DNA of 35,121 bases, taken from positions 1-35,121 of the forward strand of contig REBU01000076.1 in assembly GCA_007692585.1 (NCBI GenBank). The letters run 5' to 3'. The stretch's first letter is position 1; every line of letters begins with the position of its first letter. The translations under genes and the position numbers were made by a program. Of this stretch, positions 1-28,873 are shown piece by piece. The notes beneath the pieces were generated by a model that ran no database searches, was not told where the DNA came from, and saw only the letters and a list, made by a program, of their open reading frames with translations. Origin of the DNA: Paracoccaceae bacterium (lineage in GTDB: Bacteria; Pseudomonadota; Alphaproteobacteria; Rhodobacterales; Rhodobacteraceae).

Positions 1-2
1 CC

Positions 3-95
3 GTTGTCGATGAAGCCGTCGATAACGCCGTAAAACCCCGCTCAACAGCAGGGCGTCCTGGGCAGCGTGGGGGGAAGGCGCGGAAGCGAAGGTAA
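3..95 (+). CDS. 3' end of an unidentified protein with a basic tail (partial)
   Basis: An open frame enters from the left edge and ends at a TAA at 93-95, giving 30 visible residues. They start with an acidic stretch (VVDEAVDNAV) and finish with a glycine, lysine and arginine rich tail ending GGKARKRR. Such tails are common in nucleic-acid-binding proteins, but no family can be named from this piece. Codon use is GC-rich like the rest of the chromosome, unlike the AT-rich stretch that follows. It could be chance, because only 93 bases are visible. Confidence 0.35.
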   Translation, partial: VVDEAVDNAVKPRSTAGRPGQRGGKARKRR

Positions 96-212: not shown

Positions 213-368
213 TTAGCTAGTCATGCCGAGACCAACCACTTCTTCGGTTCCGAAGAACAGACCGGTCTTAAAGCCTTCGGAAGCAAGTGTGAAGTTCCCA
301 CTCATGGTTCTGGTCACGTCGAGGGTTTCGAGAACGGGTGAATTCCATGTTTCTTTTTGATTTGTCAT
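213..368 (-). CDS. Putative lasso peptide (RiPP) precursor, orphan
   Basis: This 51-residue protein has no signal peptide. The leader (residues 1-22) reads W8-x-x-P11-x-L13-x-x-L16-D17-V18 and then T21 just before the likely cleavage site. This follows the YxxPxLxxLG/D...T pattern that the RRE protein and leader peptidase of lasso peptide systems recognise, with Trp in place of Tyr. If Thr is at -2, as is usual, the core begins SGNFTLASEGF and Glu31 is core residue 9, the right distance for a 9-residue macrolactam (Ser1 to Glu9). Starting at Gly24 instead gives an 8-residue ring with Thr at -3. The tail is about 20 residues, rich in Phe and Gly, with bulky residues (Phe33, Phe38, Phe39) that could act as plugs. 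GGAG lies 6 bases before the ATG, a promoter-like pair lies upstream and a strong terminator follows. No lasso cyclase, peptidase or exporter gene is in the window, so it is either matured from elsewhere or a relic. The assignment is by pattern recognition only. Confidence 0.7.
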   Translation of the reverse strand: MTNQKETWNSPVLETLDVTRTMSGNFTLASEGFKTGLFFGTEEVVGLGMTS

Positions 369-860
369 AGTGGGCTCCAATACGTCCATTTGTTATTATT
401 TTTGTATTTATCATGTAGGCGACAGGCTGGCAACTGAGATTGCGCGCTGCGACATTTGATACCGCGAAATGGTTAATATTACAACATGACACGCCTTCTG
501 CGTGCAATAGGCTGAATTCTGATCGCCTTTTGGTGGCGCGTCTTTCCATTAAAGTATCGCCTTTAAAGAAAAATTTTATGCATGGGCGCATAGTTGCCTG
601 AGTTCCCGAAAATGAGCGCAAACGGTGTGTAGAACGGCCTCGAGCGCCCGAATGTCGCAGCGCCTGCCCGTATTGAGGCCGAATGATGCGGGTCAGAACG
701 AATCGGTCGCCGTTTGTGCGGCATCGCGAGGCAGCAGGGCCTGTCGCTGAAAGCGGTCATCTGTGCTCTGATATCTGGACAGGTCGCGGCTGGGTTGGCT
801 TGCGTCCACATTGCGTTCGGAGCCTTTACAGAGGGGCGGTTGGCCCTTATCTGCGGAGAC
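369..860. other. Long non-coding gap, AT-rich on its left side
   Basis: The left 200 bases are AT-rich and hold the promoter-like sequence of the precursor gene. The right 260 bases return to the usual GC-rich composition and should hold the smpB promoter, although I see no convincing -35/-10 pair. Open frames here on both strands (for example a minus-strand frame at 268-621 that crosses the precursor gene) have no family resemblance and are taken as chance. I see no tmRNA or other structured RNA. Confidence 0.5.
375..433 (-). promoter_or_regulatory. Promoter-like sequence and ribosome binding site of the lasso-like precursor
   Basis: On the minus strand TTGCCA (428-433) and TAAATA (405-410) are separated by exactly 17 bases, a reasonable sigma-70 type pair. 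GGAG (375-378) then sits 6 bases before the ATG at 368. The transcript start would fall near 398. The bases around it are much richer in A and T than the flanking genes. Confidence 0.5.
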
Positions 861-1334
861 ATGGTCCAGAAATCAGATCCGAATTACCGCATCATCGCTG
901 AAAACCGCCGGGCGCGGTATGATTACGCGATCGAGGAAGACCTCGAATGCGGGATCATGCTGATGGGGTCTGAGGTGAAATCCCTGCGCACGGGCCAGGC
1001 GAATATCGCCGAGAGCTATGCGACGGTCGAGGATGGCGAGCTGTGGCTCGTCAATTCCTACATTGCCCCCTACACGCAGGCCAAGACCTTCGGGCATGAT
1101 GAGCGGAGGCGCCGCAAGATGTTGGCGTCAAAGCGGGAATTGGCGCGCATGTGGGCGGCGACTGCCAAGCAGGGGATGACGCTTGTGCCCATCGTGATGT
1201 ATTTCAACCATCGCGGGTTGGTGAAGCTGAAGATCGGCATCGCCAAGGGCAAGAAGCTCGCCGACAAGCGCGCGACCGAGGCCAAGCGCGACTGGGACAA
1301 GCAGAAGCGCCGTTTGCTGAAAGAGCATGGCTGA
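861..1334 (+). CDS. smpB: SsrA-binding protein SmpB
   Basis: This 157-residue protein binds tmRNA and brings it to stalled ribosomes for trans-translation. It starts with the usual alphaproteobacterial N-terminus ([18 protein letters not shown]) and contains the core motifs [31 protein letters not shown] and the [14 protein letters not shown] basic loop. It ends with the KxDKRxxxAKRDW tail that enters the ribosome decoding centre. The frame is open back to 714, but the ATG at 861 gives the family's normal length and N-terminus. GGAG lies unusually close to that ATG. The ssrA gene itself is not in the window. The gene converges with the lrgB-like gene. Confidence 0.96.
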
Positions 1335-23688: not shown

Positions 23689-26600
23689 TTACCTCAGCAC
23701 TGCGCGGATGATTACTCTGGCCGTGGCGCCGGCTGCGATGCGGCCGCCTTCGACCTCGATCACGCAGCCTGCGCCGGGGCAGTCGGGCGAGAGGGTCAGC
23801 GTGCCTTCTGCCCAGTCTGGTCGCAACTCGGCGGCGCTCAGCGTCAGGTCAGCGGGCAACTCATCGCGCAGGGTAATCTGCTCTGCGGCGACGGGGCCGG
23901 TATTGGTGATGGTGATCGTGTATTCCATGCAAGCGCCGGGGATCGCGGTGGCGGGCAGACTGCCCGTATCTGGGGGCGCGGCCGTCAGATCATCGCAAGC
24001 GCTGCCGGATTCGGAAAACACGCGGACCGTCTTGGTGACGGAGAGTTCGGCCTGTCCCTGCAAGGTGATCGTGACGCTATCCGTGGTGACCAGTCCGAAA
24101 GCGTCGGTCACGGTGATCTGAAACACCAAATCCTCACTGGCGGCACCGCCTGCGGGGGCCGTGGCGGTAAAGCCGGGTTGCAGGATGTTGGCATCTGTCA
24201 GCGTGACAGTCGTCCCCGCGGTCTGGGTCCAGCTGATGGAGGTGATGTTGTCATCGGGGTCCGAGGCCGTGCCGAGGAGCGTGATCTCCTGCCCCTCGGT
24301 CGCGGTGACATCCGCGCCTGCATTGGCCTCGGGGCCGGTATTGATGACATAGCGCGCCACCACGATCCCCGATCCGCCATTGCCGCCCGCGTCGCGTCCG
24401 AAGCCCGCGCCGCCCCCGCCGCCGCCGGTATTGGGCTGGCCATCCCCGGGCAGGGCCGCGCCCGCACCGCCGCCGCCGCTGCCGCCGCCATGCGAGGCTG
24501 CGCCGACTGTGTCGGCATTGGCGATCATGCCGCCGCCCCCGCCGCCGCCATAGCCGCGCAGGCTGCCAGTGATCGCAGAGGTAATGCCTGCGCCCCCGGC
24601 CCCTGCGACGCGGTTTTCGCCGTTAACACCAGGTCCGCCTGCGCCGCCGCCGCCACCGCCTGCGCGATTGGTCAGCGTGCTGCCATGTCCATTCCCGGCT
24701 CCGCCGGCATGGCCCTGACCCGGCGTCCCTGCCGCGCCGACGGTTGTCTGGCTGTTGACGCGCGCGCGCCCGCCGCCGCCGCTGCCGCCCACGCGCGGGG
24801 TGCCCGCGATCGCACCGCCACCGCCCCCACCGCCGAGGGCCGTCTGGCCCGCGAAGGAACTGTCTGTGCCGTTTTGCGCCGCAAGGCCGAGCGCCTGATT
24901 GCCGCCCTGTCCGCCTGTACCGATGATCGCCGGGTAGCTGCCCGCTGTCAGTGTCTCGGTCCCGACAAGAAGGCCGCCCGCGCCACCGCCGCCTGCGGAG
25001 AAATTCAGCAGCGGATCGGGTGAGGTGCCCGAATTGCCGCCACCCCCGCCACCCGCGACGATCAGATATTCGACTTCGGTCGGATCGCTCAGGGACAGCG
25101 TGCCATTCCCGAAGTAGCTATGCGCGCGCCAGGTCACATGGCCTGCGATGTCGTTGTATTCAACGACTGTGCCGCCTGCGCCGGGGGGCGGGGGCTGGGT
25201 CTCGGTGCGCGGGGTCACGGTGATCGTCACCTCGCTGGTCGAGACAAGGCCGAACGGATCAGTGACGGTCAGGCGGAAGGTCAGATCCTCGGAGATGCCA
25301 TTGACGGGCTGGGGCGCGGTGAAACCCGGCGCGGTGCTCGCGGGGTCGCTGAGCGCAACCGTGGTGCCTGCGATCTGCTCCCATTCGTAGATCAGCGCAT
25401 CACCATCGGGGTCGCTGGAGCCAGTGCCGTCGAGGCTGACCTGCGTGAAGCCCGTGACCGATTGCGCGGGGCCTGCATCCGCGGTGGGGCCAGTGTTGAT
25501 GACATAGCGCAGCACCACGATCCCCGAGCCGCCATGGCCTCCGCTGAACCCATCGCCCGAAAAAGAGCCGCTTGCCCCGCCGCCACCGCCGCCAGTACCA
25601 GCGGTGGCATTCTGACCCGGCCCGCGTGTCGCGGGTGCGCCTCCGCCGCCGCCGGTGCCGCCAGATCCGCCTGTTGCCCCGTCAAAGCCACCACCACCGC
25701 CGCCGCCTGCATAGACCTGATCTGTTCCGGTGATGCCGCTGATCTGCCCTGCACCCCCGTCCGCGCCGGAATTGGACATGACTGATCCGCCCGGCGCCCC
25801 GGCCCCGCCGCCACCTGCACCGGCGACATTGAATGTGGCGTCACCATCGCCAGTCCCGCCCGAATTGCCCTGGCTTGGCGTGCCCGCGCCGCCCCCACCA
25901 GACGAGGTCAGACGGCCACCGCCACCGGACCCCCCGGCGGCCCCGGAACTGTTGCCCACAAAGCTACCGCGCCCGCCGCCAAGCGCGATGAGTCCGTCGA
26001 AGCTGGATGCGCCGCCATTGGTGCCTGCAGTGCAAGTGGCGCCACAAATGGCCCCTGCACCAGCTTGCCCGACGGTGATCGAGAAAGACCCTGCCGCGAC
26101 AGAGCGCGTGCCCTCAAGCATCCCGCCAGCCCCGCCGCCGCCCGCGCCGCCTGAGGGGCCTTCGGCTATACCACCCCCCCCGCCGCCCCCGCCGACGATC
26201 AGGTAGTCGAGCGTCGTGGGCGCGCTGAGCACCAGCGTGCCATCCCCGAAGAAACTTTGCGCGCGCCAGGTCACATGGCCGGGGATGTCGTTATACTCGG
26301 TGACGCTGACACCTGTGCCGGGTTGGGGCGGATCGGGCAGGGCCGCGACCGTGATCGTGACTTCATCGGTGTCGGTCTGGCCCGAGGAGGTCACAGTGAC
26401 GCGGAAGCGCAAGGTCGCAGGGCCCGATGGGGCGGTAAAGCCGGGCGTCGCCGTATTTGCGCCGCTCAGCGTGACGGCGGGGCCTTCGATTTGCGCCCAC
26501 GCGTAGCTCAGCGCCTCGCCGCCACTGGCGCTGGAGCCGCTGGCGTCCAGCGTGACCGGGGTTGTCTCATAAACGGTCTGATCGGGGCCTGCATCGGCCG

Positions 26601-27603
26601 TGGGGACGGGCTCATAGACATAGCGCAGGATCACGATGCCCGAGCCGCCATTGCCGCCGCGCGACTCAAGGCCCTCATTGCCGATCCGTCCGCCCGCGCC
26701 GCCGCCGCCCCGGCCGTTGAGGCCGTTATTGCCTGCTGCAACATCGTTGCGCGATTCGCCCCCGCCGCCCGCGCCGCCGGAATTCGTCGACACGCCCGGC
26801 CAGCGTAGATCGCCGCCGCCCGCGCCCCCGCCGCCATAAGTGACGCTGCTGCCGCTGATGCTGGACGAAACCCCGTTGCCCCCCCGCCCGGCCTGCGAGC
26901 TTGTGCCCGCAAAGCCCGCCTGACCGGCCCCGCCGCCGCCGCCGCCAGAGGAATCGCCGCCGCCAATCGTGCCGGTCGCGCCGCTATTGCCCTGACCCCC
27001 TGTGCCACTGCCGGGCGCACCAACATGCGACGCGCCGCCGCCCGATCCGCCATTGCGGCCTGCGCCATTCAGGGTTTGGTTGTTATAGGTGCCGCCGCCG
27101 CCACCGCCTGCGGCCTGATCGCTGAAACCTGCGCTGAAAATCCCGCTGCGCGTGCCGTTTCCGCCACCGGGCACGGGCGCGTTGGGCCATGTGGTGCGGA
27201 AATCGCCCACCCCCCCGGCCCCGACTTCGATGGTGAAGGGGCGGACTTCGCTGAAAAAGCCATTGCGCACCCCACCTGCGCCGCCGCCACCGCCTGCAAG
27301 CGCCCCACCACCGCCGCCGCCACCGACGAGCAGGTATTCGACGCTGCGCGACCGGAGCAGCTCGAAGTCGTGGGTGCCGACTGTGGTGAAGGTGTGGATG
27401 CAGAATTGCTGCGAATCGACCGTGATCCGCGTGACGGTGCCGCCTGTGGCATAGGCAGCGCAGGCCGGGTCTGCCTGCGCGGGCGTTGTGCCCAGCAGAC
27501 ACAGCAGGGTAAGCAGCAGCACGCCAAGGCGCGCCGCTAGGCCGGGGCGGCGCGGGCTGGCCGGGGTTCCGCGCGTCGGGGCGGTGGGGCGAGGCTGTGC
27601 CAT
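23689..27603 (-). CDS. Secreted modular protein: glycine-rich, PKD-like and DUF11 domains
   Basis: This 1304-residue protein has a signal peptide ending TTPAQA around residue 44. Three large glycine-rich domains follow (about 87-329, 463-700 and 841-1087). Each opens with a VEYLLVGGGG-type strand and closes with a GGNGGSGIVILRYV-type strand. Each is followed by a PKD/Ig-like domain beginning ADAGPDQTV or similar (about 331-418, 705-797 and 1090-1187). Modules 2 and 3 are preceded by a repeated EYNDIxGHVTWRAxSxFGxGTL linker. A cysteine-bearing DUF11 domain ends the protein (about 1187-1304, with PGACMEYTI and CPGAGCVIEV). It is probably exported to the cell surface. ATG 27603 lies 4 bases after the upstream gene's stop. 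An extended frame to 27678 exists but would overlap that gene. Function unknown, with adhesin or matrix protein as inference. Confidence 0.82.
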   Translation of the reverse strand: MAQPRPTAPTRGTPASPRRPGLAARLGVLLLTLLCLLGTTPAQADPACAAYATGGTVTRITVDSQQFCIHTFTTVGTHDFELLRSRSVEYLLVGGGGGGGALAGGGGGAGGVRNGFFSEVRPFTIEVGAGGVGDFRTTWPNAPVPGGGNGTRSGIFSAGFSDQAAGGGGGGTYNNQTLNGAGRNGGSGGGASHVGAPGSGTGGQGNSGATGTIGGGDSSGGGGGGAGQAGFAGTSSQAGRGGNGVSSSISGSSVTYGGGGAGGGDLRWPGVSTNSGGAGGGGESRNDVAAGNNGLNGRGGGGAGGRIGNEGLESRGGNGGSGIVILRYVYEPVPTADAGPDQTVYETTPVTLDASGSSASGGEALSYAWAQIEGPAVTLSGANTATPGFTAPSGPATLRFRVTVTSSGQTDTDEVTITVAALPDPPQPGTGVSVTEYNDIPGHVTWRAQSFFGDGTLVLSAPTTLDYLIVGGGGGGGGIAEGPSGGAGGGGAGGMLEGTRSVAAGSFSITVGQAGAGAICGATCTAGTNGGASSFDGLIALGGGRGSFVGNSSGAAGGSGGGGRLTSSGGGGAGTPSQGNSGGTGDGDATFNVAGAGGGGAGAPGGSVMSNSGADGGAGQISGITGTDQVYAGGGGGGGFDGATGGSGGTGGGGGAPATRGPGQNATAGTGGGGGGASGSFSGDGFSGGHGGSGIVVLRYVINTGPTADAGPAQSVTGFTQVSLDGTGSSDPDGDALIYEWEQIAGTTVALSDPASTAPGFTAPQPVNGISEDLTFRLTVTDPFGLVSTSEVTITVTPRTETQPPPPGAGGTVVEYNDIAGHVTWRAHSYFGNGTLSLSDPTEVEYLIVAGGGGGGNSGTSPDPLLNFSAGGGGAGGLLVGTETLTAGSYPAIIGTGGQGGNQALGLAAQNGTDSSFAGQTALGGGGGGGAIAGTPRVGGSGGGGRARVNSQTTVGAAGTPGQGHAGGAGNGHGSTLTNRAGGGGGGAGGPGVNGENRVAGAGGAGITSAITGSLRGYGGGGGGGMIANADTVGAASHGGGSGGGGAGAALPGDGQPNTGGGGGGAGFGRDAGGNGGSGIVVARYVINTGPEANAGADVTATEGQEITLLGTASDPDDNITSISWTQTAGTTVTLTDANILQPGFTATAPAGGAASEDLVFQITVTDAFGLVTTDSVTITLQGQAELSVTKTVRVFSESGSACDDLTAAPPDTGSLPATAIPGACMEYTITITNTGPVAAEQITLRDELPADLTLSAAELRPDWAEGTLTLSPDCPGAGCVIEVEGGRIAAGATARVIIRAVLR

Positions 27604-27607
27604 GGTG

Positions 27608-28873
27608 TCAGTTGATCGAGGCACGTAGGGTGAGCTGGCGGGACGTTTGTGCCGGGATCGTCCCGTGGATGATTTCAATCACACATCCCGGACCCGTGCA
27701 ATCCGGGGTGAATTGCAGCTCCGCGTCTGCGCCCCAGTCACCGCCGAGCGTGGCCGCGCGCAGGGTCAGCTGGGACGGGAGCGCGTCCGCAAGGGTCACG
27801 TCGGTCGCGGGCACGGGGCCGGAATTGGTGACAGTGATCACATATTCGATGCAGGCACCTGGGATCGCAGCTGGCAGGGCCGGGGCCGCGGGCGGGCTGG
27901 CGGCGGGATCGGCACAATTGCTTCCTGTTTCGGACCAGACCGAAACGGTCTTGCTGGCAGTCACAACAGGCACGCCCTGCACAGTGATCGCGACTGTGTC
28001 AGTCGCGCTGTTCGCTGCGGCATCGGTCACGGTCAGCTGAAAGATCAGCGTTTCGTTTGCCCCGGCGGGCTGGAGCGCAGTGAAGCTGGGGCTGGGACTG
28101 GCGGGATCACTGAGGGTGACGGGGGGGCCTGAGATCTGTTGCCAGAGATAGCTGGTGATGTCGGCCTCGGGCGATGAATTGGTGCCATCCAGCTGAACCG
28201 AATCGAAAGCGGAAACGGATTGGTCAGGGCCCGCATCAGCGATGATCGGGGGTGCAGGGGCCGGGGTGCTGCTGGCATAGAGGATGATGGCGCGCTGATT
28301 TTGGTCGGGGTTGGCAATGCCGTCTATATTACGAATTTCGAGCGTGCCAGAGGAGCTCTGCGCGTCGAAAGGAATCAGGGAAATGATGATCTGTTCTGTC
28401 ACGACAAGAGGATCAACGCCCGGTATTGCTATCCCGAAATAGTAATCGAGCTCGCCAGAGAGCGGGTATTCATCCAGATCCACAAATGGAGCGTTATCGA
28501 TGCTGACAGAGAGCAGCATCTGACGTGGCCCGCCTGGATTCCTTAAAATGTTGACCCAGAAATCAGTGATTTCATAGACATAGCCTTGCGTGCTGAATCC
28601 GAACCTGAATTCCTTCGTGCGGTCGAGTGCGCCAGACCACCCCCGCGCGCCGAAACCATGCGTGCTGGGGACGAATTCGACGCCGATCCGCTCCAGGGGC
28701 ATCGGGACGAGACCTGGCCCGAGCGGTGTGGGCATGGCCGACAGGCTGGGTTGTTCGGGTGCGCCGGGAACCGGGTCCTGGGTTTCGGTTTGGTACGACA
28801 GGACCAACTGCGAAGACAACGCAGGCGGGACATAGATGATGAGGATCAGAAAAGCGCAAAGCAGCGATCTCAC
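27608..28873 (-). CDS. Secreted protein with PKD-like and DUF11 domains
   Basis: This 421-residue protein has a signal peptide of about 20 residues (hydrophobic LLCAFLILIIYVPPALS). The N-terminal part, to about 200, is of unknown type and likely beta-rich. A PKD/Ig-like domain follows (ADAGPDQSVSAFDSVQLDG onward, about 215-300). Last is a DUF11 domain with the cluster's cysteine pattern: Cys in SNCADP, PGACIEYVITVTNSGPV, and CTGPGCVIEI near the end. It begins with a GTG that overlaps the TGA of the upstream beta-barrel gene by 4 bases (GTGA), so it is translationally coupled to it. The function is unknown; a surface partner of the barrel protein is inferred from coupling. Confidence 0.78.
   Translation of the reverse strand: MRSLLCAFLILIIYVPPALSSQLVLSYQTETQDPVPGAPEQPSLSAMPTPLGPGLVPMPLERIGVEFVPSTHGFGARGWSGALDRTKEFRFGFSTQGYVYEITDFWVNILRNPGGPRQMLLSVSIDNAPFVDLDEYPLSGELDYYFGIAIPGVDPLVVTEQIIISLIPFDAQSSSGTLEIRNIDGIANPDQNQRAIILYASSTPAPAPPIIADAGPDQSVSAFDSVQLDGTNSSPEADITSYLWQQISGPPVTLSDPASPSPSFTALQPAGANETLIFQLTVTDAAANSATDTVAITVQGVPVVTASKTVSVWSETGSNCADPAASPPAAPALPAAIPGACIEYVITVTNSGPVPATDVTLADALPSQLTLRAATLGGDWGADAELQFTPDCTGPGCVIEIIHGTIPAQTSRQLTLRASIN

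Follow-up and report, generated by a model that had tools for sequence, protein, structure and literature searches.

A short gene on the minus strand, lying between uvrB and smpB, raises the question of whether it encodes a genuine lasso peptide precursor and, if so, how such a precursor could be matured at a distance from any lasso enzyme. The window, i.e., the whole stretch of 35,121 nucleotides that was analysed, belongs to an alphaproteobacterial genome (G000), and the gene lies close to its left edge, with the following features around it.

6 to 92, plus strand: 3' end of uvrB (context), with the remainder on contig C41
155 to 192, minus strand: intrinsic terminator, 12-pair stem and T run (terminator scan)
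213 to 368, minus strand: lasso precursor gene A, 51 codons and TAA (above the NF033524 cut-off)
216 to 218, minus strand: C-terminal Ser51, predicted phosphorylation site (Ser at the end of 10/10 precursors; kinase-like genes; the paeninodin site)
216 to 302, minus strand: core, residues 23–51, 29 aa (translation and alignment with the orthologue)
276 to 302, minus strand: predicted 9-residue ring, Ser23 (core 1) to Glu31 (core 9) (Ser or Thr at 23 and Glu at 31 in 10/10 precursors; closure predicted)
303 to 368, minus strand: leader, residues 1–22, WxxPxL...LDV...T-M (invariant residues; no replacement changes relative to the orthologue)
375 to 378, minus strand: ribosome-binding site GGAG (sequence; kept in the orthologue)
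405 to 433, minus strand: conserved upstream block, possible promoter (TTGCCA-17-TAAATA by eye, with a weak -10; alignment with the orthologue)
861 to 1331, plus strand: smpB (context), divergent from the precursor (SmpB, 180.6 bits)

A precursor gene in the uvrB–smpB gap

The frame runs from an ATG at 368–366 to a TAA at 215–213, a second TAA follows directly, and the plus strand over 213–368 encodes no 51-aa lasso-like protein. The sequence-only reading had described it as an orphan lasso-peptide-like precursor and had proposed the paeninodin-family model as a check. The precursor passes that model (NCBIfam NF033524) with 28.8 bits (E 7.2e-7) against a cut-off of 27, an excess of 1.8 bits only, and homologous leaders are found in relatives, both of which bear the description out. 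Neither a Pfam search with the 51-aa protein nor a search of a plasmid collection returned a match. Judged from its sequence, the gene appears to be a true, conserved paeninodin-type lasso precursor, one that belongs to a known family and lies outside a cluster.

The GGAG ribosome-binding site (378–375) and the terminator on the minus strand (192–155) that had been described are both present. Support for the terminator comes from the length of its stem (12 pairs), as the two terminator-like sites in positions 1–900, against a shuffle mean of 1.1 (sd 1.1), are a count near chance that says nothing. The -10/-35 pair was not confirmed, with a sigma-70 scan finding 0 sites where 0.5 were expected by chance; an upstream block (TTGCCA, GCCTGTCGC; 433–419) is nevertheless common to the precursor and its orthologue in alignment.

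The claim that the gene stands alone is upheld by the surroundings on both sides. Contig C41 of the same assembly begins inside uvrB and overlaps the first 55 bases of the window, all of them identical. The two contigs (C41 at the start of L149, and C111 at window positions 1–55) share exactly these 55 bases and are probably neighbours; exact short overlaps between contig ends are a frequent outcome of k-mer assemblers. When nine lasso proteins (B1, B2, the kinase, the exporter, three cyclases and two precursors) were searched by tblastn at 1e-3, the window matched only at the precursor itself, and no match fell on 20,000 of the 20,798 bases of C41, giving a span without other lasso matches of 20 kb to the left and 34.7 kb to the right. 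Cluster neighbours hidden across the contig edge were rejected on these grounds. The clustering of precursor and enzymes that is expected of a lasso system was not found here. Of the ten precursors aligned below, only this gene and its orthologue have no lasso enzyme match on their contig, the other eight having one or more. Elsewhere in the window (23689–28873, minus strand), two adjoining long frames of 1329 and 421 aa carry PKD domains, one of them also a glycine-rich domain, and are possibly surface or secreted proteins.

Conservation and the predicted ring

A sister genome (G009), taken to be the MAG Natronohydrobacter sp. CSBr16_62 (Paracoccaceae), carries an orthologue in the same uvrB–smpB gap, the contig in question being just 3.7 kb long. 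The orthologue passes NF033524 with 29.1 bits, and the TGA inside its match is its own stop. Across the 22 leader codons there are five silent and no replacement changes, against ten silent and eight replacement changes in the aligned core (26 codons before a length difference). When the alignment is set so that the C-terminal Ser residues pair, the two cores agree at 19 of 27 positions, which include Glu9, Gly10 and that Ser. In 200,000 trials of five randomly placed leader substitutions, the protein was left unchanged in 78, or 165 with transition bias. Over the first 28 codons, a boundary picked after viewing the alignment, there are nine silent and no replacement changes, and the protein was unchanged in 0 and 1 of 200,000 trials. 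Judged by this codon pattern, the leader is under selection and the core varies.

The distribution of the gene is narrow. smpB was found in 33 genomes out of the 37 of the genus. Around smpB in 31 of these (30 loci and L075), with some loci ending early upstream, the precursor is seen in G000 and G009 alone. Searches of all 37 genomes as a whole, 13 of them 71–88% complete, revealed the orthologue in the same two genomes only, and no others pass the NF033524 cut-off. At E ≤ 1 the model is noisy, matching 30 of the 37 genus genomes and five of 14 controls (no control above the cut-off), and weak matches therefore mean little. The precursor protein itself, searched against 100 relatives, gave matches at E ≤ 1 in eight, of which five were counted as carriers (G000, G009, G013, G030 and G034). 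G060, G071 and G075, whose matches are weak (E 0.05–0.43), were not counted, the translations of the first two looking unrelated. A sixth genome, G002, has a weak NF033524 match (14.9 bits) that was accepted because a B1 match adjoins it. These six genomes supplied the ten precursors that were aligned. A contig scan with a single peptide pattern gave three loci from two MAGs.

Residues W8, P11, L16, V18, T21, G24 and E31 are invariant in all ten precursors, this gene included, which places a WxxP leader, a Thr at -2 and an acidic ring acceptor (Glu31, core position 9) in every one of them. Core position 1 is Ser in eight and Thr in two, and the last residue, as read from the sequences, is Ser in all ten. 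Trp8 and Ser1 had been regarded as unusual, which does not agree with the alignment, as Trp8 is found in 10/10 and core position 1 is only ever Ser or Thr, so that both are normal for these precursors; in paeninodin-like precursors of Bacillota, moreover, WxxP is reported to be almost invariant (PMC13381572).

Lasso precursors have been described as conserving a threonine next to the last residue of the leader (PMC10368454), and two rings had been proposed for this core. The 9-residue ring between Ser1 and Glu9 is favoured by the sequence because Thr21 then sits at -2, and it stands with T21 and E31 invariant. The 8-residue ring starting at Gly24 was rejected, because Thr21, which does not vary among the ten, would be shifted out of -2. 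By analogy with paeninodin, for which phosphorylation at the C-terminal Ser is known (PMC9266682), the precursor is probably phosphorylated at its last Ser.

Maturation genes on other contigs

A set of maturation genes is present elsewhere in the genome. On contig C108, a stretch of 12 kb (L071 6561–18904) holds genes for a second precursor, B1, an exporter, B2 and an HprK-like kinase, and a Poly_export gene lies among them. B1 matches Pfam PqqD with 69.2 bits, and the lasso-specific NF033536 with 66 bits against a cut-off of 80, whilst B2 matches NF033537 with 58.4 bits, above the cut-off of 33; PF13471 (B2) also matches two of 14 control genomes, one of them above the cut-off. The MsbA-like exporter is below the cut-off of each model among the 25 listed, and the kinase-like gene (L071:17993–18904) reaches 26.8 bits with TIGR04352 against a cut-off of 200. 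Read by eye, the kinase-like protein does show His, a P-loop Lys and Asp-Asp in the order that is described for lasso kinases, enzymes that modify the C-terminal Ser (PMC9266682). No interruption is seen in the frames of B1, B2, the kinase or the exporter, and the same set is found on contig C62 of G009, where the proteins are 93% (B1), 89% (B2), 90% (kinase) and 97% (exporter) identical.

In G009, a further contig of 11 kb, C297 (L072 929–4571), carries a cyclase-like gene, a kinase-like gene and two precursors, with a flippase-type polysaccharide gene nearby and no match to B1 or B2. The cyclase-like protein has Asn_synthase and GATase_7 domains, its best match being lass_lactam_cya at 195 bits (cut-off 525). 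Both precursor cores start with SGNxT and contain E9-G10, features also found in the orphan precursor. At E 0.1, NF033524 gave no match for one of these two precursors and 16.6 bits for the other, and no match for the second precursor of G000. By eye, each C297 precursor apparently has a terminator-like hairpin to itself.

The cyclase is the one component that was not found in G000. In this draft assembly (116 contigs, 97.97% complete), PF00733 has four matches of at most 27 bits, none at 1e-9; two of them resemble, by eye, what we take to be QueC and MnmA. The G009 cyclase used as a query found no match, and the 11 kb C297 region, compared at the DNA level with 40 of 273 candidates scored, gave a kinase match only. 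A gene flanking the G009 island had no match in G000 or G002 in a search without a positive control. In the wider genus, B2 matches reach 55 bits or more in ten genomes, and in nine of these PF00733 is matched at 1e-9; four genomes whose B2 matches are weaker lie outside this count. Three of those nine (G018, G023 and G024) have two matches each, one of at least 335 bits and one of 64–70 bits, and the higher-scoring proteins may be ordinary asparagine synthases.

Contig C108 stops 185 bases past the kinase, and its last 55 bases are found only at that end in the assembly. At the matching place G009 has tRNA-Val followed by a frame that looks Lon-like by eye, and a cyclase would therefore not be expected past the contig end by synteny. 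An assembly gap is nonetheless likelier than loss, since no other frame of the set is interrupted and parts are missing from drafts here, as in G013, where a precursor, B2 and C lie on one contig with no match to a B1 query that may be too distant. The search for B1, B2 and C that the sequence-only reading had proposed was successful for B1 and B2, with a kinase and an exporter in addition, and unsuccessful for C in this draft. What that reading had named as evidence against itself, a lack of homologous leaders in related genomes together with a lack of lasso B and C genes, is not what was observed, as homologous leaders and both B1 and B2 exist.

Explanations and known systems

The precursor belongs to the paeninodin family, is conserved, and lies remote from B1, B2, kinase-like and exporter genes that the same genome carries. 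It is probably a working, free-standing paeninodin-type lasso precursor that is matured in trans. B1 of C108, a separate protein with a PqqD-like RRE, would bind the W8xxP11xL leader, the HprK-like kinase would phosphorylate Ser51, B2 would cleave between Met22 and Ser23, which leaves Thr21 at -2, a lasso cyclase would link Ser1 and Glu9 so that the ring encloses the tail, and the product would leave by the MsbA-like exporter of C108. The B1, B2, kinase and C steps follow the paeninodin pathway as described (PMC5067487; PMC9266682), and it is by this analogy that we infer the expression, trans processing, ring, phosphorylation and export of this precursor. Points against this reading are that the gene was found in only two of 37 genus genomes, that the searches of G000 gave no cyclase, that several lasso parts score below the lasso-specific cut-offs, and that NF033524 and PF13471 also match control genomes.

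The gene could instead be a relic, left after the loss of an island like that on C297, with the machinery incomplete and no lasso peptide made. The absence of a cyclase from the searches of G000, the recovery of only a kinase match with the C297 region and the resemblance of the orphan core to the G009 C297 precursors would all fit such a loss. However, the leader has five silent and no replacement changes, the ribosome-binding site, terminator, Glu9 and terminal Ser are kept, and the B1, B2, kinase and exporter frames are intact. The presence of PF00733 in 9/10 of the genomes with stronger B2 matches, and the loss of parts from drafts such as G013 (though the query there may be too distant), also argue against decay, making a relic rather unlikely. 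That the frame arose by chance, or encodes some other small protein merely resembling a lasso leader, might be suggested by its shortness, its narrow excess over the family cut-off and the lack of a Pfam match, but this is highly improbable given an orthologue with such a pattern of codon changes, and nine other precursors that have the same leader residues, Glu9 and last Ser, a lasso enzyme match being present on the contigs of eight of them.

Another explanation is that both precursors of G000 are cut, phosphorylated and exported without a ring, like the linear polyphosphorylated peptides (LPPs) of Bacilli, whose clusters are described as lacking a cyclase and as found in capsule loci (PMC13381572). 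C108 is compatible with this, holding a precursor, B1, B2, a kinase-like gene and an exporter beside a polysaccharide-export gene, with no lasso cyclase match. The LPPs are, however, described as using a SipW-like signal peptidase and YxxP leaders (PMC13381572), whereas here there are B2 and WxxP; Glu9 is invariant in 10/10 precursors, as ring closure would require; and C62 of G009 is also without a cyclase match, yet G009 has a cyclase on C297. A linear product is accordingly improbable. A broader possibility, which we consider unlikely, is a dispersed lasso system in which one maturation set by polysaccharide genes serves scattered precursors and the cyclase lies on another island. The cyclase would then have been lost in the species of the window and the orphan released linear and phosphorylated at its last Ser, half-way between lasso peptides and LPPs.

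The nearest known system is paeninodin (PadeA, with PadeB1, B2, C and the kinase PadeK; NF033524). Shared with it are the WxxPxL...LDV...T-x leader, an acidic residue at core position 9, the split B1 and B2, an HprK-like kinase, the C-terminal Ser and a neighbourhood of polysaccharide genes. Paeninodin is, however, from Bacillota, whereas this precursor is from an alphaproteobacterium, is remote from its enzymes and belongs to a genome in which C was not found. Paeninodin also has Asp at core position 9 and Ala at position 1, against Glu and Ser in this precursor. SyanA and SyanK of Sphingobium yanoikuyae (PMC9266682), likened here by description, are also proteobacterial, with a tailoring kinase and a C-terminal Ser, and the account of them in that source, as far as available, mentions no remote precursor. 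The LPPs resemble C108 in having an RRE, an HprK-like kinase, an MsbA-like exporter, a capsule or polysaccharide locus and a cluster without a cyclase, and differ in their YxxP leaders and SipW-like peptidase from a system with WxxP in 10/10 precursors, B2 and an invariant Glu9 (PMC13381572).

The B protein has been described as intact in all proteobacterial systems characterised until 2016 (PMC5067487), and paeninodins were called restricted to Bacillota in 2026 (PMC13381572). The main text of a biosynthetic-cluster survey of Roseibaca and relatives does not contain the word "lasso" (PMC10584327). No description of remote lasso precursors was found in the literature searched (titles and the starts of abstracts, with most subscription journals outside the search). 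The present findings place the paeninodin-type set of WxxP, split B, kinase and terminal Ser in alphaproteobacteria.

Lasso peptide mining usually starts with the enzymes and then seeks adjoining precursors. The present precursor, conserved and without a lasso enzyme match for 20–35 kb to either side, in a genome that has B1, B2 and the kinase at other places, illustrates what such enzyme-first searches can miss. It would also allow an easy check on whether remote precursors are served by one RRE. Both enzyme sets, on C108 and on C297, lie near polysaccharide genes, which bears on what their role may be.
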